NCBI GenBank assembly: GCA_001897855.1
Contig: MKUO01000005.1
Location: 62,001-126,000 of the forward strand
Direction: 5' to 3'
DNA from: Bacteroidetes bacterium 43-93
GTDB taxonomy: Bacteria > Bacteroidota > Bacteroidia > Chitinophagales > Chitinophagaceae
Length of the DNA stretch: 64,000 nucleotides
Below are positions 1,614 through 7,894 of this stretch, piece by piece. Position 1 is the stretch's first letter. The number at the start of each line of letters is the position of its first letter. Under the pieces are notes generated by a model. The model worked only from the letters and a program-made list of their open reading frames with translations. It was not told the origin of the DNA and made no database searches. A program made the position numbers and the translations under genes.

Positions 1614-1679
1614 GCTTACAAATTCACTGTTAAGTAGGCTCTTTTATTTTGATTAGGCGGGTTTGCAGGCGCATATTTG
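1614..1679 (+). promoter_or_regulatory. Regulon promoter, copy 1 (upstream element plus -7 box)
   Basis: The upstream element at 1614-1634 reads GCTTACAAA-N6-GTTAAG and the -7 box at 1672-1679 reads CATATTTG. A TTTG at 1648-1651 lies 20 bp before the -7 box and could be the -33 element. The distance from the first base of the upstream element to the first base of the -7 box is 58 bp, the same as in three other promoters (2024, 6873, 7236). A second GTTA half-site lies 22 bp further upstream at 1607. It drives the gene at 1727. Confidence 0.65.
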
Positions 1680-1726
1680 CATTATCAAAACGAGCAATGC
1701 TAAACACAAATAAAAAATTAAACACC

Positions 1727-2014
1727 ATGGCTATTACACACAATGCAGTTGCAGTACTTTTTCCGGGAGCACAAACACAGGATGTTATCAGCGCCTCAGA
1801 AAAATACCACATCAATATAGTAGACCAGGAAGCTTATAGCCTGCAAAAAGATTATGAAAGGTATTTTAAACCTTCAAGGCATATTTTTCATAAAGATGAT
1901 GTGAATGTTCTTTTTGTTTTTGCCGATGGAACTGCCAGCCTTATTGAGGATGGTAATAGCATGAGGTCTATGCTCAGGGATCTTCGCGACCTGATTGGTA
2001 TGACCTTTAACTAA
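1727..2014 (+). CDS. Small protein of unknown function, paralogue A
   Basis: 95 residues, no signal peptide or membrane segment. I do not recognise the family. It is clearly a paralogue of the protein at 2177: both start with NAVAV-x-FPG, then T-x-DV and AS, then KDY-x(2)-(Y/F)FK-x-SR, then N-(V/L)-LF, DG and a C-terminal helix; by eye about a third of positions are identical. The reading frame is open back to 1649, but the predicted transcription start near 1685 and the match to the paralogue's N-terminus choose the ATG at 1727. The A-rich leader (1685-1726) has no purine-rich ribosome binding site. It is probably coregulated with the genes at 2177 and 7334 and the RNA at 6943. Confidence 0.8.
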   Translation: MAITHNAVAVLFPGAQTQDVISASEKYHINIVDQEAYSLQKDYERYFKPSRHIFHKDDVNVLFVFADGTASLIEDGNSMRSMLRDLRDLIGMTFN

Positions 2015-2023
2015 TTGCAAATG

Positions 2024-2089
2024 GCTTGTAAATAGCTTGTTAAACGGACCCCGAAATTCGTGAAACACTTAAACACCGCCTTACCTTAG
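2024..2089 (+). promoter_or_regulatory. Regulon promoter, copy 2 (upstream element plus -7 box)
   Basis: The upstream element at 2024-2043 reads GCTTGTAAA-N6-GTTAA and the -7-like box at 2082-2089 reads TACCTTAG. The spacing is again exactly 58 bp. In this copy the element is visibly a direct repeat with an 11-bp period (GCTTGTAAA, then GCTTGTTAAA). It drives the gene at 2177. Confidence 0.6.
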
Positions 2090-2103
2090 CACCACAAACA
2101 CAA

Positions 2104-2148
2104 CCTGTACTAAACAGGACAAACAAACAAACCTGCGGCTTTCGCAGG
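2104..2148 (+). promoter_or_regulatory. Two leader hairpins with AC-rich linkers
   Basis: Within the leader of the 2177 gene, hairpin 1 pairs CCTGT (2104-2108) with ACAGG (2114-2118) around loop ACTAA. Hairpin 2 pairs CCTGCG (2132-2137) with CGCAGG (2143-2148) around loop GCTTT. They are joined by GGACAAACAAAC..., a G-poor single-stranded linker that also occurs between hairpins of the array RNA at 6943-7200. The leader is about 80 nt long. Function unknown. Confidence 0.6.
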
Positions 2149-2176
2149 ACAAAACAAAACATAAAAAACACAGAAA

Positions 2177-2461
2177 ATGAATGCACTTACTAATGCCGTG
2201 GCAGTAGTATTCCCCGGCGTCGATACCACAGATGTAGTAAACGCCTCTGTTACGCACACTGCAAATGTTCTCATAAAAGAGCCCTTCAATCCTTCAAAAG
2301 ATTATACCAAATTCTTTAAACGCTCCCGCAAGCTCATCACTACAGACTTGATGAACCTGCTGTTTATTTACCCCGACGGCAGCTCTGTAATGGTGCAGGA
2401 CCTGGTAGCTTTAAAGAATGCGTTGAAGAAAGCGGCCATAGCCAATGGCGCCTTCGCATAA
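2177..2461 (+). CDS. Small protein of unknown function, paralogue B
   Basis: 94 residues, paralogue of the protein at 1727 (shared NAVAV-x-FPG, DV, AS, KDY, FFK-x-SR, N-L-LF, DG). No signal peptide, membrane helix or known catalytic motif. It starts at the only suitable ATG after a structured leader and ends in front of an intrinsic terminator, so it is a monocistronic unit. Having its own promoter with the same upstream element as paralogue A suggests coexpression, perhaps as partners of a hetero-oligomer; that last point is inference. Confidence 0.8.
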   Translation: MNALTNAVAVVFPGVDTTDVVNASVTHTANVLIKEPFNPSKDYTKFFKRSRKLITTDLMNLLFIYPDGSSVMVQDLVALKNALKKAAIANGAFA

Positions 2462-2483
2462 AAAGATGTTGTTTTGTTGTAGT

Positions 2484-2520
2484 AAGCAGCCTTCGTATTT
2501 ATACAGGGGCTGCTTTTTTT
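2484..2520 (+). terminator. Intrinsic terminator after paralogue B
   Basis: Stem AAGCAGCC (2484-2491) with GGCTGCTT (2508-2515); the 16-nt loop contains an inner GTAT/ATAC pairing. A T-run extends to 2520. Confidence 0.85.
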
Positions 2521-2591
2521 ATCTGTCCTATTTCTAAAGGAATGGCCATGTATTATAGCAAAAAATGTTATATTGTGTTAAAACCTCCTAT

Positions 2592-3266
2592 ATGCGTAAA
2601 TTCAGCATGCTCATTTGCTTTATCTTATCCGGTATTAATGTATTTGCCGATGACGGCGATGCATCCCGGAAAAAGGTAACTACAAGCATAGGCTTTATGA
2701 TAGGCCCTACTGCCGTTCACGTCGATAGGCCGATGGGTTCCGTGTACAATAATTATTATGGCCCTACAGACGCACCATGTTTCAATGTGGCTTTCGCATT
2801 CGAGCATTATTTTAATGCGCATAGAAGGCCATTGTATTTCTCAGTTGGCGGCAGGTTGGCTACAACGTATATCGAAACCTACTACGAGTGGAATGTTAAT
2901 AATGGCTATAATTATAATTATTCTGATTACAACCACATGATCATCGGCAGCCTCGGTGTTTCTGCCGCGCTTAATTGGGATATTGTGAGGGGAAGGAATG
3001 CAGCGCTCACAGCGCAGGCTGCCGTTGTACCGATGGTGGAAGCGGGCCAGTTCCGCGGCGATGTTCAGCCCAATGCTGCGGGAGAATTATACCTGGGAGG
3101 CACATTTATGAATAAAGTATCGATCGGGGTACGTGGTTCTACTCGTTTTATGTATTATCAGTACGATTTAAATAAACCGGTTGATGACGCCCGTTATACG
3201 CTCACCAACATTTCTATTGATGTCAGGTTCAGGCTTAACGAAGGTAAATCACGCATGGTTCGATAA
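2592..3266 (+). CDS. Putative outer-membrane beta-barrel protein
   Basis: 224 residues from the ATG at 2592, starting with signal peptide MRKFSMLICFILSGINVFAD. The rest is short alternating strands rich in Tyr, Asn and Gly (for example NNGYNYNYSDYNHMIIGSLG) and the C-terminal strand ISIDVRFRLNEG, typical of small Bacteroidota outer-membrane barrels of the porin/OmpW-like type. No specific function can be assigned. An in-frame ATG nine codons upstream is less likely because it would precede the signal peptide. The sequence just before the start, AACCTCCTAT, recurs at two other places in the window. Confidence 0.7.
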   Translation: MRKFSMLICFILSGINVFADDGDASRKKVTTSIGFMIGPTAVHVDRPMGSVYNNYYGPTDAPCFNVAFAFEHYFNAHRRPLYFSVGGRLATTYIETYYEWNVNNGYNYNYSDYNHMIIGSLGVSAALNWDIVRGRNAALTAQAAVVPMVEAGQFRGDVQPNAAGELYLGGTFMNKVSIGVRGSTRFMYYQYDLNKPVDDARYTLTNISIDVRFRLNEGKSRMVR

Positions 3267-3315
3267 TTTTAAACCTCCTATAAACCCCGGGATATGGTCA
3301 CTTTTACTTCTATAT

Positions 3316-3462
3316 ATGAAAAACACCCTCTATTTGATTGCAGTCGTTTTAACGGTATGCTGGCTATTGGGGTTCGCTCAGTTCAACTCAGGTAGTCTTA
3401 TCCACATTTTTTTGATCCTGGCAATCATCACTTTCTTGCTCGGATTTTTTAGTAAAAACTAA
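3316..3462 (+). CDS. Small two-helix membrane protein, lmo0937/DUF5670-like
   Basis: 48 residues: two hydrophobic helices (about 4-22 and 28-45) around a short FNSGSLIHI turn. This matches the pattern of the lmo0937 family (DUF5670), tiny membrane proteins with a conserved G-x-(I/L)-IHI-(L/F)-L-(V/I) core. The cellular role of the family is not established; members are often stress-related. The frame is open upstream, but the ATG at 3316 gives the family's usual length. A terminator follows directly. Confidence 0.7.
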   Translation: MKNTLYLIAVVLTVCWLLGFAQFNSGSLIHIFLILAIITFLLGFFSKN

Positions 3463-3480
3463 CCTAAACAGCGCTATACA

Positions 3481-3508
3481 AAAGCTCCTCCTTATGGGGA
3501 GCTTTTTT
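3481..3508 (+). terminator. Intrinsic terminator
   Basis: Stem AAAGCTCC (3481-3488) with GGAGCTTT (3498-3505), then a run of T to 3508. Confidence 0.85.
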
Positions 3509-3624
3509 GTTAGCCCCTTCTGTTAATAAAAAGCAAAACAGAAAAAACCTTGTAACCTTTTCTTTCAATCGGCGATTAACTAATAACAACCACAAATTAC
3601 TGTTGATCAAAAAATCCAAAGGTT

Positions 3625-3942
3625 ATGAAAAACATACTCATCCTGTTTGCAATCCTCATGTCCGGTATCTCTTGCTTAGCCGCAGAGCCCCAACCACCCC
3701 TGCCTACCACTACTGCAACACCTGCCTGTAGTGTTTATGTGTCTGATAACAACATCGTGATCCGCAACAACGGTAACACGCCTGCTGAAGTAACTATGTT
3801 TGGAAAATTCGGAACACCCATCGTTAAATCCAGTATCGCCGATAAACAAATGGTTCCTGTAAAAGACCTGCCCGAAGGCAAATACCTCATTAAGGTAAAA
3901 ACTCAGAATGGTGAGCAGAATATCAAATTAAGTGTTCTGTGA
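3625..3942 (+). CDS. Small secreted protein with a C-terminal beta domain
   Basis: 105 residues. Signal peptide MKNILILFAILMSGISCLAAE, then a Pro/Thr linker (PQPPLPTTTATPA), then one beta-rich domain ending in a YLIKVKTQNGEQNIKL strand. The domain resembles the Ig-like T9SS C-terminal fold in layout (VYVSDNNIVIRN..., LPEGKYLIKV) but lacks the usual PNP motif, so secretion by T9SS is only possible. A terminator overlaps the end of the convergent gene. Confidence 0.6.
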   Translation: MKNILILFAILMSGISCLAAEPQPPLPTTTATPACSVYVSDNNIVIRNNGNTPAEVTMFGKFGTPIVKSSIADKQMVPVKDLPEGKYLIKVKTQNGEQNIKLSVL

Positions 3943-3953
3943 TCAACCTGCTG

Positions 3954-3982
3954 CGGGCGGCTATTCCTGGCTGCCCGTTTTT
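3954..3982 (+). terminator. Intrinsic terminator between convergent genes
   Basis: Stem CGGGCGGC (3954-3961) with GCTGCCCG (3970-3977), one G-U pair, then TTTTT. It slightly overlaps the 3' end of the minus-strand gene. Confidence 0.75.
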
Positions 3983-4418
3983 ACACACGCATCGTATCTG
4001 CATTCCATACTCTTATTCGCTTTTTCATCTCATCAGGCGATAGGTTGTTATCAACCGCCTGCTGTAACAGTTCTACAAATTGGTCGTCGTTTGCAAATCT
4101 TGCAGCCGCCAGTTGTTTAAAGCTTAGTTTCGATTCCAGTTCTTCCAGTCTTTTGCCTGTAAGCTGGTAATAACGCAGTCTCAGTTCCAGTCGCACTATC
4201 CGGTCCTGGTTAGTTAACGCGTAATGTTGCCGCAGCATAAAGGAGAGCCACGCTACTACAAAAAAGCATCCTGCCAATAGTCCAAACTCCAATTTCTTTT
4301 CGGGATACTGCGTCATGTAATAAATACATAACGCTATACAGGCGCCTGTTACCGGGTAAAAGACAAAATGGTGCGGTATATAATACCGTATATGGTTTTG
4401 ATAATTCTGTTTTTTCAC
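3981..4418 (-). CDS. DUF6526-like membrane protein
   Basis: 145 residues. It begins KKQNYQNHIRYYIPHHFVFYP, then has two transmembrane helices (about 20-38 and 45-62), then a soluble helical tail with the segment QDRIVRLELRLRYYQLTGKRLEEL and a C-terminal PDEMKKRIRVWNAD. This order matches my memory of the DUF6526 family of Bacteroidota; the family has no established function. It is transcribed away from the small secreted protein and follows the lipoprotein gene at 5269-4451 on the same strand. Confidence 0.6.
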   Translation of the reverse strand: MKKQNYQNHIRYYIPHHFVFYPVTGACIALCIYYMTQYPEKKLEFGLLAGCFFVVAWLSFMLRQHYALTNQDRIVRLELRLRYYQLTGKRLEELESKLSFKQLAAARFANDDQFVELLQQAVDNNLSPDEMKKRIRVWNADTMRV

Positions 4419-4450
4419 GTTCTATAATTACCTAAAAACTATGCCTTGTA

Positions 4451-5269
4451 CTAATCCAGGCCCAGCGGATGTTTGATCATCTTATAAAACGATGGATTGC
4501 CTGGTGCTACTAAAAACAAAGTATCAGTCGATTTTGTTGAGAGTTTCGGCCAGGAAGGGGAAATCCGTATAAGATCATTAGTTAATACAAGTCTGTAATT
4601 ATCGTGTATAGAGGTATCAGCAGAATTGTAATAGGTGCTGAATGCGGTTATACTCTTAAATACAATATCATCTGTAAAATCATAGTAGAAATGATCTGTA
4701 ATATTAGCTCCTATATAGTTCGATCTTCTGTGTGTACCGGTTTTATCGTAGTTAATAATAACAACATGGTTTTTCTTGGAGTTGTTCAATGTATCCCATA
4801 CGCTTTTGCCTGTAGAATCGTAGGCATCAATAGCCTCCCATTGTGTAGAGCCATCTATACCAAAAAGGAAATAGCGCATCCTGTCGCTGGTAGGCACCGG
4901 TTCAATAGGTATATTATAGCTGATCCTGTTTTGCAGATAGCCGAAACTGGGCCTTACGTTAAAGTAGCCGGGTATATACCAGTTAGACATCGTGAAGTCT
5001 GTTGACGCCCAGTAATAAGTGAAACCCGCTGCCTGGTCGCCATCTTTCATTTGGTGGTAAGGGAAATAATATAATTGGCCGGGCTGCAGGTTTATCAAAG
5101 ATACTTTGTGCCCAACGGTATCGGTCAGGCGAATGATAATGGGCTTACCTGTTTTGTTCTGAAATGTATAATTTTCATACTGGCTCACAACATCCGGTGT
5201 AACATCTTTTTTCTTACAGGCTATCAAACTTGTTACCACCAGCAGCGGTAAGATCCACAAACGCTTCAT
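4451..5269 (-). CDS. Lipoprotein of unknown function
   Basis: 272 residues. The N-terminus MKRLWILPLLVVTSLIACKKK is a lipoprotein signal with lipobox LIAC and lysines after the cysteine. The mature part is beta-rich and Tyr/Asn-rich without a motif I recognise. The gene precedes the DUF6526-like gene with 32 bp between them and is probably cotranscribed. Surface or periplasmic location is expected. Confidence 0.75.
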   Translation of the reverse strand: MKRLWILPLLVVTSLIACKKKDVTPDVVSQYENYTFQNKTGKPIIIRLTDTVGHKVSLINLQPGQLYYFPYHQMKDGDQAAGFTYYWASTDFTMSNWYIPGYFNVRPSFGYLQNRISYNIPIEPVPTSDRMRYFLFGIDGSTQWEAIDAYDSTGKSVWDTLNNSKKNHVVIINYDKTGTHRRSNYIGANITDHFYYDFTDDIVFKSITAFSTYYNSADTSIHDNYRLVLTNDLIRISPSWPKLSTKSTDTLFLVAPGNPSFYKMIKHPLGLD

Positions 5270-5343
5270 TTGTATAAATTTAGGAGTATGAAGATAAAAA
5301 CTTGTTGGCTGTGAAGCAATTAACCATTGATTAAACGGTATGG

Positions 5344-5778
5344 CTAATGCCGGTAGGGTTGCTTTACAACCGCGTCCCGCTCCATTTCTTCCAGCAATTC
5401 AGCCATATATAGTGCATCATTTACAATGGCGGGTTCCGGCTGGGTCATGATCATCGCCAGTCCCTGTTCTGTACGCACATACATCGGGTATTTTCGCTCG
5501 CCCCTGATGATCTTGTATAAGAATTCTTGCTGCTCTTCTGTAGTTACGGGTTTCATTCCAGGTATTTCAATGTCTTCAAAGCAATCTTTATAGAAGTAAA
5601 GGATCCCCGCATCTATCCGATGGCGTATTTCCGGGTCGGCCATCATATAGGCTATAGCATCTTTCAGGTAATAGTCCTGCATTTTGGGGAAAGCCATCTT
5701 TACGGCAGCCACCGGCTTGCCATGCAGTATCATCTCACGAACAAAAATATCTTCGGTGGTAGAAGGTATTTTTTTCAT
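5344..5778 (-). CDS. Hypothetical protein with a terminase-small-subunit-like N-terminal motif
   Basis: 144 residues, soluble, acidic. The N-terminal stretch IFVREMILHGKPVAAVKMAFP resembles the helix-turn-helix opening of phage terminase small subunits (pattern F-V-x-E-x(5)-A-A-x(3)-A), and PEIRHRIDAG resembles the P-x-V-x-x-R-I segment of that group. There are no other phage genes nearby, so this is more likely a domesticated DNA-binding protein than part of a prophage. The remaining sequence is helical with no catalytic motif. The family assignment is tentative. Confidence 0.5.
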   Translation of the reverse strand: MKKIPSTTEDIFVREMILHGKPVAAVKMAFPKMQDYYLKDAIAYMMADPEIRHRIDAGILYFYKDCFEDIEIPGMKPVTTEEQQEFLYKIIRGERKYPMYVRTEQGLAMIMTQPEPAIVNDALYMAELLEEMERDAVVKQPYRH

Positions 5779-5867
5779 TTACCTGTGGTTAATACCGTAA
5801 ATATAACCAGCTTATTATGTATGTGGTATTATAATAATATCCACATATCCACATTTTGAAGATTTTA

Positions 5868-6530
5868 TTATCGTCTGCTATACAGGTACATGAGTATGCA
5901 AAGTGTAATAGATATTATTGCGATAAAATAGGGTAGGAAAGACGCCCACTGCTTCCGATGCCGGCTTGTTTTCACCTGGTTTAATATAGCATCCGTCATT
6001 TTTTCATCCTGTTGCGATAACTGTTGCAGTATGGGCGCTATCGCCTGCATATATTCATATCTCAGGTGGCGGGTACTTTGTAGTAATTCCCGCACTATCA
6101 GCAGATTTTGCTCTCGGTCGGTGCCTTGTTCTAATATAGCCATATGGCTGTCTTGCAGCAATAGCATCACATAATCATAAAGCGCGCGATGGTTCATACG
6201 ATAGGTATCCACCATGTCCATATGCTGATGCAGTTTTTTTGCTTCTCTATATATCCACTGCGGCGTCACAGCAGCCTGGTCTTTCGCTCGCTTGCTCATG
6301 CCGCTGAGCCAGCGTTCTTCATCATATTTTTTCCGCTTCTGATGGTCGCTGAGTACAGAATAGGCTTCTTGTATCTCCAGGAAGTGTGCTATAGCGTACT
6401 GGCTGTCGGGGTTGGTGTCGGGATGGTATTGAAATGCCAGTGCCCGGTAAGATTTTTTGATCTGCTCTTGTGTTGCCTCGGCAGGTAGCTCCAGTATTTT
6501 ATAATAATCCTTTAATGCTTGGGCGGGCAT
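5868..6530 (-). CDS. DnaJ-domain protein with a C-terminal membrane anchor
   Basis: 220 residues. The J-domain occupies about residues 8-70 (DYYKILELPAEATQEQIKKSYR, HPD at 36-38, YSVLSDHQKRKKYD). A helical middle region follows, and one transmembrane helix lies near the C-terminus (about 200-216) with a short RR tail. It lacks the Gly/Phe region and zinc centre of full DnaJ, so it should act as a membrane-tethered cochaperone that stimulates DnaK ATPase for a local client. The client is unknown. Confidence 0.85.
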   Translation of the reverse strand: MPAQALKDYYKILELPAEATQEQIKKSYRALAFQYHPDTNPDSQYAIAHFLEIQEAYSVLSDHQKRKKYDEERWLSGMSKRAKDQAAVTPQWIYREAKKLHQHMDMVDTYRMNHRALYDYVMLLLQDSHMAILEQGTDREQNLLIVRELLQSTRHLRYEYMQAIAPILQQLSQQDEKMTDAILNQVKTSRHRKQWASFLPYFIAIISITLCILMYLYSRR

Positions 6531-6579
6531 ATGTAAATGTAAAGGCTATCCTTTACATCAGCAAAAGCGCAGGCAATAA

Positions 6580-6765
6580 TCAGTTTTTAGAAGTTGCGTT
6601 GATGTCGCGTATTTTATTTTGCAGCAGCCATTTATAGAAGGCTTCCCTGTCTTCAGGGTTATGCCTTACGATCTCTCCATTCTTAAGCGAAATGATGAAG
6701 ATGCCAATGGTTTCTGTAAAAGCGGATAATTCATGAGGTTGATATGGAAATTTGGTATTGGGCAT
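6580..6765 (-). CDS. Small hypothetical protein
   Basis: 61 residues: YQPHELSAFTETIGIFIISLKNGEIVRHNPEDREAFYKWLL is a compact beta-hairpin plus helix pattern that reads like a real protein. No signal peptide. It lies 50 bp upstream of the DnaJ-domain gene on the same strand and may be cotranscribed. Family unknown to me. Confidence 0.55.
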   Translation of the reverse strand: MPNTKFPYQPHELSAFTETIGIFIISLKNGEIVRHNPEDREAFYKWLLQNKIRDINATSKN

Positions 6766-6872
6766 AAATGAGAGGTTAATTGGAATTGGGCCACAATATT
6801 ACTGCAATGGTTTTTACCTGTGATTGACCTCGGTTAAGAAATAGGCCAATTCCTGTTAACCGTTAGTTAAGC

Positions 6873-6938
6873 ACTTGCAAACCGAAGGTTAAGTATGCGG
6901 CTTAATTTTTTTTCTGCACTACTTGCGATGCATATTTG
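6873..6938 (+). promoter_or_regulatory. Regulon promoter, copy 3 (drives the stem-loop-array RNA)
   Basis: The upstream element at 6873-6893 reads ACTTGCAAA-N6-GTTAAG and the -7 box at 6931-6938 reads CATATTTG; the spacing is exactly 58 bp. More GTTAA half-sites lie upstream at 6855 and 6865. No clear TTTG -33 element is present, only a T-run, which fits an activator-dependent promoter. Predicted transcription start near 6943. Confidence 0.65.
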
Positions 6939-6942
6939 TATC

Positions 6943-7200
6943 ACCAACCAAACGAAATAAAATGCTCCGTAAAGCATTTTAATAGTAGAACAGGCGGCCC
7001 CGTAAGGCCGGACAAACAAACGAAATACCTGCTCCGTAAAGCAGGCAAACAAAAAAGAAGACCCGCACCGTAATGCAGGCATTTTAAAAAAGAAAGCCCT
7101 GGCCCGTAAGACAGGCAATCTATATAGATCTAAAAGACAATCCCGTAAGATTGTATTGTTAGAGAGCAGAAGCCGCAGTTTTATAACTGTGGCATTTTTT
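6943..7200 (+). ncRNA. Stem-loop-array RNA with six CCGTAA loops
   Basis: About 257 nt between a -7 box and an intrinsic terminator, with no ORF longer than six codons after the predicted start. It holds six hairpins with an identical hexaloop CCGTAA at 6967, 7000, 7034, 7068, 7104 and 7143 (spacing 33-39 nt). The stems differ but pair: AAAATGCT/AGCATTTT, CGGCC/GGCCG, CCTGCT/AGCAGG, CCCGCA/TGCAGG (one mismatch), CCTGGC/GACAGG (one mismatch), ACAATC/GATTGT. Linkers are A/C-rich, including GGACAAACAAAC. Different stems around one fixed loop suggest selection on structure and on the loop, for instance as a repeated protein-binding or antisense site. I know no described family like it. Confidence 0.65.
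7172..7200 (+). terminator. Intrinsic terminator of the array RNA
   Basis: Nine-pair stem GCCGCAGTT (7172-7180) with AACTGTGGC (7185-7193), loop TTAT, one G-U pair, followed by ATTTTTT. Confidence 0.85.
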
Positions 7201-7235
7201 ATGTCTTTTCAAATTTTGTTAATTGCTGGTTAACG

Positions 7236-7301
7236 ACTTGCAAACGGGTTGTTAACGATTAACACTTATTATTGTTAACGCTGGTTTGTGTTACATATTT
7301 G
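7236..7301 (+). promoter_or_regulatory. Regulon promoter, copy 4 (drives the secreted protein at 7334)
   Basis: The upstream element at 7236-7256 reads ACTTGCAAA-N6-GTTAAC and the -7 box at 7294-7301 reads CATATTTG; the spacing is 58 bp. A possible -33 ATTG lies at 7271-7274, 19 bp before the -7 box. Further GTTAA half-sites lie at 7229 (22 bp upstream of the one in the element) and 7274 (23 bp downstream). Confidence 0.65.
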
Positions 7302-7333: not shown

Positions 7334-7894
7334 ATGAAAAACATCATCGCTACTCTAACAATGTTATGCTGCGCGATCTGCACTTTTGCAGGAGATGGTC
7401 CGGCAGTTAGTCAATCAACTACAAGTGCCGGCGCTTCACAAACAATACAGCTAGTACTTGCCGATGGCATCGAAATAGGATTTGCCAACGGGGGTAATAA
7501 TGGTGGTATCATTCAGCTTGCGTTTGCCAATAATAGCAACTATGCTACTGGTATGGAAAGTGCAGATCAGCAGCTGGTGGTGCGCAGCAATCGCAAGTTC
7601 GAGGTAAAAATGCAGCCTGCTTCAGAAGTGTTTTCTTATAGCGGCAGCACCAACAATGCACCGGCAATGCGTGTAGAAGATGTTTTGTCGCTGATGGTTT
7701 CTGATAATGCAACAGGCGGACAAAACAATTATCCGCAATATCATAATGTAAATGGTGGTAATACCCGCATACTTACCAATTGCAGCAATGGTTCTAACCA
7801 AACGTTTTCAGTTCGCTACCGTGCTAATCCCGGTATGCGCTATGCTGCAGGCACATACACTGTAAATATGGTGTACACAGCAACTCAAAGCTAA
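7334..7894 (+). CDS. Secreted beta-rich protein of unknown function
   Basis: 186 residues from the ATG at 7334 (after GGACAAAAA). Signal peptide MKNIIATLTMLCCAICTFAG, then a Gly/Asn/Ser-rich beta domain with LVLADGIEIGFANGG and LVVRSNRKFEVKMQPAS, ending FSVRYRANPGMRYAAGTYTVNMVYTATQS. The closing AGTY-T-x(4)-YTATQ strand is like the last strand of pilin/WxL/DUF4402-type surface beta-sandwiches, so a fimbrial or adhesin-like role is possible but unproven. An in-frame ATG at 7310 would place charged residues before the signal peptide. It shares a promoter element with the array RNA and the two small paralogues. Confidence 0.7.
   Translation: MKNIIATLTMLCCAICTFAGDGPAVSQSTTSAGASQTIQLVLADGIEIGFANGGNNGGIIQLAFANNSNYATGMESADQQLVVRSNRKFEVKMQPASEVFSYSGSTNNAPAMRVEDVLSLMVSDNATGGQNNYPQYHNVNGGNTRILTNCSNGSNQTFSVRYRANPGMRYAAGTYTVNMVYTATQS

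Follow-up and report, generated by a model that had tools for sequence, protein, structure and literature searches.

Direct repeats at an 11-bp step are a known form of bacterial operator. The ArcA sites of Escherichia coli comprise two to five direct repeats, in many cases at least three, with a centre-to-centre distance of 11 bp, and four repeats give a footprint of about 44 bp (PMC3798270). The published ArcA core GTTAATTAAATGTTA contains GTTAA-N6-GTTA (PMC3358236). The present analysis concerns a stretch of 64,000 nucleotides from Bacteroidetes bacterium 43-93 (contig MKUO01000005.1, positions 62,001 to 126,000), hereafter the window, which corresponds to C5:62001-126000 of the 3.99-Mb source genome G000. 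Four promoters in the window share the element RCTTRYAAA-N6-GTTAA, which is part of a larger operator of four direct repeats. These elements probably mark an undescribed set of genes that are switched together by one sensor-regulator pair. Among other systems relevant to the comparison, the pho box of PhoB usually takes the place of the -35 element, LytTR operators combine two 9-bp repeats at a distance of about 21-22 bp, and the loop motif of CsrB is GGA.

Operator structure and promoter geometry

A sequence-only reading of the window had described four elements, each followed by a -7 box at a constant distance. The elements are indeed present on the plus strand at 1614, 2024, 6873 and 7236, and in every case the box starts 58 bp past the start of the element, at 1672 (CATATTTG), 2082 (TACCTTAG), 6931 (CATATTTG) and 7294 (CATATTTG). 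The features of the locus are the following.

1596-1633, + strand: operator of gene A, units GTAAA, GTTAT, ACAAA and GTTAA, from the array scan
1646-1651, + strand: probable -33 element ATTTTG of gene A, placed where the genus-wide profile has it
1672-1679, + strand: -7 box CATATTTG of gene A
1727-2014, + strand: gene A, 95-aa small protein of no known family
2006-2043, + strand: operator of gene B, units TTTAA, GCAAA, GTAAA and GTTAA; the last bases of gene A overlap unit 1
2082-2089, + strand: -7-like box TACCTTAG of gene B
2177-2461, + strand: gene B, 94-aa paralogue of gene A
6855-6892, + strand: operator of the hairpin-array RNA, all four units exact
6931-6938, + strand: -7 box CATATTTG of the hairpin-array RNA
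6943-7200, + strand: hairpin-array RNA with six CCGTAA-loop hairpins; putative start placed from the box
6967, 7000, 7034, 7068, 7104 and 7143, + strand: CCGTAA loops of the hairpin-array RNA
7172-7193, + strand: terminator-like hairpin of the array RNA, followed by T's
7218-7255, + strand: operator of the secreted-protein gene, all four units exact
7294-7301, + strand: -7 box CATATTTG of the secreted-protein gene
7334-7894, + strand: secreted protein, 186 aa, member of a multigene family

The four exact elements compare with a mean of 0.01 and a maximum of 1 when the window was resampled 100 times under a first-order Markov model, and the element together with the box at the fixed distance did not appear in any of these resamplings. 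When up to two mismatches are allowed, the element is not significant in the window (9 matches versus 5.9 expected, with 14 of 100 shuffles equally high). The earlier statement that the window has no other copy is correct for the exact pattern and for the window only; more copies are found genome-wide. A scan of the genome with a slightly loosened element and YANNTTTG 36-40 bp on resulted in five hits, three of them in the window, and none for the reversed pattern. The two extra hits, at contig ends, were considered as rRNA promoters; this assignment was rejected because they precede members of the secreted family, and no Rfam match was found in the nine loci scanned.

Reading the regions upstream of orthologues led to the recognition of a four-unit array. 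The operator is 38 bp long and comprises four half-sites in the same direction at an 11-bp step, GTTAA-N6-GTTAA-N6-GYWAA-N6-GTTAA, ending 38 bp ahead of the Bacteroidota -7 box. The element noted originally is half of this operator, namely units 3 and 4, and a single 20-bp site is ruled out as the conserved unit. The extra GTTA(A) half-sites reported 22-23 bp away do exist, but they belong with the element to one array of 11-bp period. In the window, the arrays at 6855-6892 and 7218-7255 match all four units exactly, and those at 1596-1633 and 2006-2043 contain three mismatches.

The anatomy of the promoters was examined with 111 distinct sites, excluding those near a locus end, which merged to 102 non-redundant arrays. 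Measured from the last GTTAA, the start of a HANNTTWG box lies at 37 bp in 17 arrays, at 38 bp in 52 and at 39 bp in 4, so that 73 of the 102 carry the box at 37-39 bp, as expected for Bacteroidota sigma-A promoters with a TAnnTTTG -7 box at -12 to -5. That position was mapped in Flavobacterium psychrophilum (PMC9723704), and if the -7 box lies there in the present promoters too, the array spans about -88 to -51. In the 52 arrays with the box at 38 bp, the spacers between units are informative too, an AnTTTG-like -33 element lies ~24 bp ahead of the box, and a conserved TTTGCATCATCAAAC comes after it. The fixed spacing and weak -33 element proposed from four promoters hold across the whole genus. 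Some promoters of the secreted family in genomes G001 and G013 contain six units, the two extra ones following the same 11-bp period. Direct repeats with a period of 10-11 bp, as in operators of OmpR/PhoB regulators, are present in 14 exact copies in G000 and, with at most one mismatch, in all 14 other genomes of the genus.

Distribution and target genes

The array was sought in 15 genomes of the genus (G000-G014) and in 44 genomes from outside it. G000 contains 14 exact matches, 15 with at most one mismatch and 42 with at most three, some of the 42 being shifted registers or the opposite strand of the same arrays; the reversed pattern matches once, at three mismatches. With at most one mismatch, the counts for G000 to G014 are, in order, 15, 7, 22, 1, 17, 16, 24, 17, 15, 22, 12, 10, 17, 10 and 16, with shifted registers of long arrays counted separately and at least one palindrome scored once per strand, versus no match to the reversed control in each of the 15. 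Four of the 44 outside genomes contain an array match (two in G034, one in G036, two in G045 and one in G051) and four contain a control match; therefore, only the genus stands out. Orthologous promoters retain the element, and throughout the genus it is met again ahead of related genes. Hence, neither of the two outcomes named beforehand as damaging to the proposal, a lack of conservation in orthologous promoters or many hits unrelated to promoters, was encountered.

All 15 arrays of G000 with at most one mismatch precede an open reading frame (ORF) or the hairpin RNA. Eleven are associated with genes of the secreted family, six preceding full-length members and five, near contig ends, preceding a start that reads as the signal peptide of the family. 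One array precedes the hairpin RNA and three precede small ORFs, which are an 89-aa type known from other genomes, a 53-aa ORF and a 27-aa ORF. A conserved microprotein of 27-28 aa (MQ-L-F---I-ISE-type) lies behind operators at L121 (G000:C5:40638), L256 (G009) and L260 (G012). Targets in G007, G009, G012 and G013 include a long secreted repeat protein as well as PID-CTERM, lipoprotein-like and small proteins; the PID-CTERM assignment follows from scores of 42 and 33.5 bits for L257 and L262 on NF046080 (cut-off 26).

The secreted family is matched 15 times in G000, and 14 of the 15 genus genomes each have 3-26 copies. An array score of 18 or more out of 20 is reached by 31 of 37 family promoters, versus 0 of 740 resamplings, and 21 of the 37 pass in addition a strict box test at 34-41 bp; neither the truncated L080 nor the fragments L083-L089 entered these counts. 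All 11 promoters of gene A orthologues examined retain the array, with the box at 38 bp in 10. For gene B orthologues, 9 of 13 promoters reach an array score of at least 18 of 20 and 6 of 13 have the box at 38 bp. Among 59 genomes, the small proteins encoded by genes A and B occur in the genus alone, with a match in 13. For the secreted family beyond the genus, 248 genomes drawn from the order were searched and five match (G000, G013, G032, G034 and G211). Thirteen family matches are listed for G034, and the three promoters read there by eye consist of a diverged array and a CATCTTTG box ~37 bp on; the operator therefore appears somewhat older than the strict pattern suggests.

G003 yielded zero matches to the secreted family in a genome-wide family search. 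Its single array match (L234:11093) is an intact operator with promoter downstream of a flavin-reductase-like gene, after which no family gene follows. By our reading, the array at G000:C18:567203 likewise lies behind a flavin-reductase-like gene. The operator of G003 looks like a promoter relic left after its gene was lost.

Alignment of 29 members of the secreted family gave no PDB match up to an E value of 5, and the Pfam and NCBIfam matches are weak and scattered with no convincing family. A few of these are pilin-like, and a pilin role would be a guess that is not claimed here. The AlphaFold2 model of the secreted protein, whose input consisted of two near-identical rows, was set aside at a mean pLDDT of 33.7. 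The 925-aa outer-membrane-type protein beside the G000:C24 target was considered as an usher and is not claimed as one, its Pfam matches being SdrD_B and other small domains. Several G000 contigs (C1, C5, C11, C12, C13, C17, C18, C24 and C26) begin or end inside family genes, and recent near-identical copies therefore probably broke the assembly. As a separate observation, four family promoters (L061, L064, L067 and L074; in G007, G009 and G002) have no array and carry, ahead of the -7 box, a near-palindrome similar to ACTACTAACATTAGTGAT, which, as read by eye, may represent a second control element in the family.

The candidate regulator and competing explanations

The array, its spacing and conservation, its targets and its co-occurrence with one regulator are all read from genome sequences, and the view that the element marks a regulon, which would be controlled through it, is well supported. 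The sequence-only reading had suggested an undescribed regulon; a conserved element before related genes is found genus-wide, and the literature searches made found neither the regulon nor the motif, the operator itself being of a known kind. The explanation considered fairly probable is that of one envelope/secreted-protein regulon whose operators are bound by a regulator of the OmpR/PhoB family, likeliest the CusR/CopR-like protein L266. The four half-sites, at their 11-bp step between about -88 and -51, would lie on one face of the helix, where two dimers of the phosphorylated response regulator could bind head to tail. The bound protein would then assist the housekeeping RNA polymerase, the promoter itself having a weak -33 element and a good -7 box. 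We infer from the sequences which regulator binds, and likewise its signal, the binding as two dimers and activation over repression. The likeliest regulator, together with its membrane histidine kinase (G000:C18:301133-303255), would probably also control itself through TTTAA-N6-TTTAA.

The assignment to L266 is based on a comparison of OmpR- and LytTR-family regulators by reciprocal best hits in four of the 15 genomes (G000, G004, G011 and G003). Each genus genome contains 5-12 OmpR-family and 6-16 LytTR domains. Six regulator orthogroups, three OmpR and three LytTR, are common to G000, G004 and G011, and a seventh occurs in G004 and G011; one orthogroup was compared in G004, G011 and G003 only (L292, L303 and L285), with L277 of G000 left out. 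G003 contains every shared orthogroup except L266/L286/L299, which has no true orthologue there. In G003 the protein nearest to L266 is L278 (51% identity). Its reciprocal partner in G000 is a different regulator, L268, at 71%, and L278 comes out as the reciprocal best of L286 only because G004 is without L268. Orthologues of L266 are found in 14 of the 15 genus genomes at 73-100% identity, the exception being G003 (best 50%).

L266 (G000:C18:301133) contains receiver and winged-helix (Trans_reg_C) domains, and the adjacent gene was confirmed to encode a histidine kinase. Its recognition-helix region is nearly invariant, with TQTNVIDVYVNFLRKK identical in 13 of 14 proteins and a single V to I change in G005. 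The best NCBIfam matches of the pair are TIGR01387 for the regulator, at 252.8 bits and so under the curated cut-off of 279.2 for heavy-metal regulators, and TIGR01386 for the kinase, also under its cut-off (180 versus 292.55 bits). Two TTTAA words exactly 11 bp apart occur in 9 of 13 promoters of L266-type regulators, and within the range of 6-24 the only other spacing is 23, in two; this count excludes L167, a near-copy of L166, and L177, which belongs to another paralogue. Over 30 loci of relatives, [TG]TTAA words are 11 bp apart in 11, with spacings of 9 and 10 seen once each and 23 twice. The pair at G000:C18:301133 is the best candidate for control through the array, a good hypothesis that falls short of proof.

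Several observations weigh against this explanation. No strict-form box is present at 35-40 bp in 29 of the 102 arrays, several of which have nearby variants such as ACATTCG, ACTTAG or TATTTA, and 6 of the 37 family promoters are without an array at a score of 18. G003 (97% complete, 90 contigs) is the sole genome without an L266-type regulator, and the co-occurrence with the family, resting on a single loss, is therefore weak. Relatives of the regulator at 59-68% identity exist in genera that are without the strict array. The TTTAA pair is missing from 4 of 13 regulator promoters, that of G000 included, and the word is TTTAA, not GTTAA. Furthermore, geometry alone is no proof of activation because ArcA in E. 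coli mostly represses.

The same regulon and OmpR/PhoB geometry would be retained if another OmpR-family protein, for example the L268 paralogue or a universally present one, bound the operator, which is judged unlikely. The 5-12 OmpR-family domains per genome offer such proteins, and as TTTAA words at the 11-bp spacing are found in the promoter of the L177/L278 paralogue of G003 too, the word may be subfamily-wide. However, no orthologue of L268 was found in G004, a genome with 17 arrays, and regulators present in every genome compared explain G003 neither better nor worse than L266 does.

The sequence-only reading had left the choice between LytTR- and PhoB-type sites open. The GTTAA core resembles LytTR repeats, the array has units 22 bp apart, and some of the 6-16 LytTR domains per genome are encoded within a few kb of family genes. 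A LytTR regulator could thus occupy units 1 and 3 or 2 and 4, with the 11-bp period a by-product of two interleaved sites. Nonetheless, this is improbable: the in-between units are equally conserved, all four units being kept at the 11-bp step, arrays grow to six units at that same step, and the three LytTR orthogroups common to G000, G004 and G011 are all present in G003. Binding by an OmpR/PhoB-family regulator is favoured by the four-fold 11-bp direct repeat and by one co-occurring member of that family.

That the arrays are promoter DNA hitchhiking on the duplication of a mobile or recombining gene family, with no regulator, is very improbable, for while family copies are many, with five near-identical ones lying at contig ends, and genes A and B are paralogous, the array also precedes the hairpin leader and unrelated genes for PID-CTERM, 89-aa, 68-aa and 28-aa proteins, and units and box spacing are kept in promoters otherwise diverged (<85% identity over 133 bp among the 102 arrays, by construction).

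The hairpin-array RNA and comparison with known systems

The stem-loop-array RNA noted in the window is a hairpin array under the operator, but in six other genomes (G002, G004, G006, G007, G009 and G012) it forms the long leader of a conserved 31-aa ORF, which is absent after the array in G000 and G014. The array comprises six to eleven short hairpins, generally 28-40 nt apart, whose loop is always CCGTAA. In addition to window 6943-7200, it was found at L240, L255, L046-L049 and L054, and 8 of 10 loci examined carry it under the operator upstream of the orthologue of the gene at 7334; that search did not find it in G010 and G011. The window yielded no Rfam match. The stems covary: 64 loops, chosen so that CCGTAA is invariant, merged to 37 distinct 20-mers, in which 87.4% of cells are paired and 43 cells are changed on both sides, versus 12.0 in shuffles and a maximum of 11 on sliding. 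By two cruder measures the covariation stands out less, with 47 and 15 of 500 shuffles equally high. The window RNA and the G007 RNA both fold better than shuffles, with z of -3.39 and -2.56, respectively.

CCGTAA words with a stem of at least 4 bp make up 36 of 82 in leaders behind arrays versus 16 of 452 elsewhere, and some of the latter 16 lie in terminators or leaders of family genes. Terminator-like hairpins with a CCGTAA loop follow family genes at L238, L258 and L069, and at L372 and L377 in G034. A second, RNA-based layer is a tentative possibility, in which CCGUAA hairpins, numbering six to eleven in each array leader and one or a few in the leaders and terminators of the remaining members, might bind an RNA-binding protein or RNA partner. 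The array could then act as a co-regulated sponge or as a long sensory leader that tunes other transcripts.

Four look-alike promoters have become a computable, genus-wide regulon with a named candidate sensor-regulator pair. One control would apply to an unclassified, dispersed secreted family, small proteins, PID-CTERM proteins and a structured leader RNA, which provides a first handle on their joint role. The hairpin-array RNA is similar to CsrB-type sponge RNAs in having many short hairpins with one invariant loop on a single RNA, and differs from them in its loop, CCGUAA, and in leading a 31-aa ORF in six genomes. The likeness of the candidate pair to CusR/CopR-type regulators and kinases lies in profile matches, TIGR01387 and TIGR01386 being the best ones and both below curated cut-offs.

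The pho boxes of PhoB are likewise direct repeats in tandem at 11 bp, to which response regulators of the winged-helix type bind, whereas their half-site is a different one and here a -33-like element remains between the array and the -7 box. The E. coli ArcA sites share the 11-bp direct repeats and a similar half-site, a likeness between binding sites. Unlike those of ArcA, which acts on respiratory genes, the targets here are secreted proteins, and the candidate regulator matches best with heavy-metal regulators. The number of units, four, is nearly constant, and the array stands at one fixed distance from the -7 box. The operator thus adds to Bacteroidota an ArcA/PhoB-like tandem arrangement of unusually strict, four-unit and fixed-distance design.

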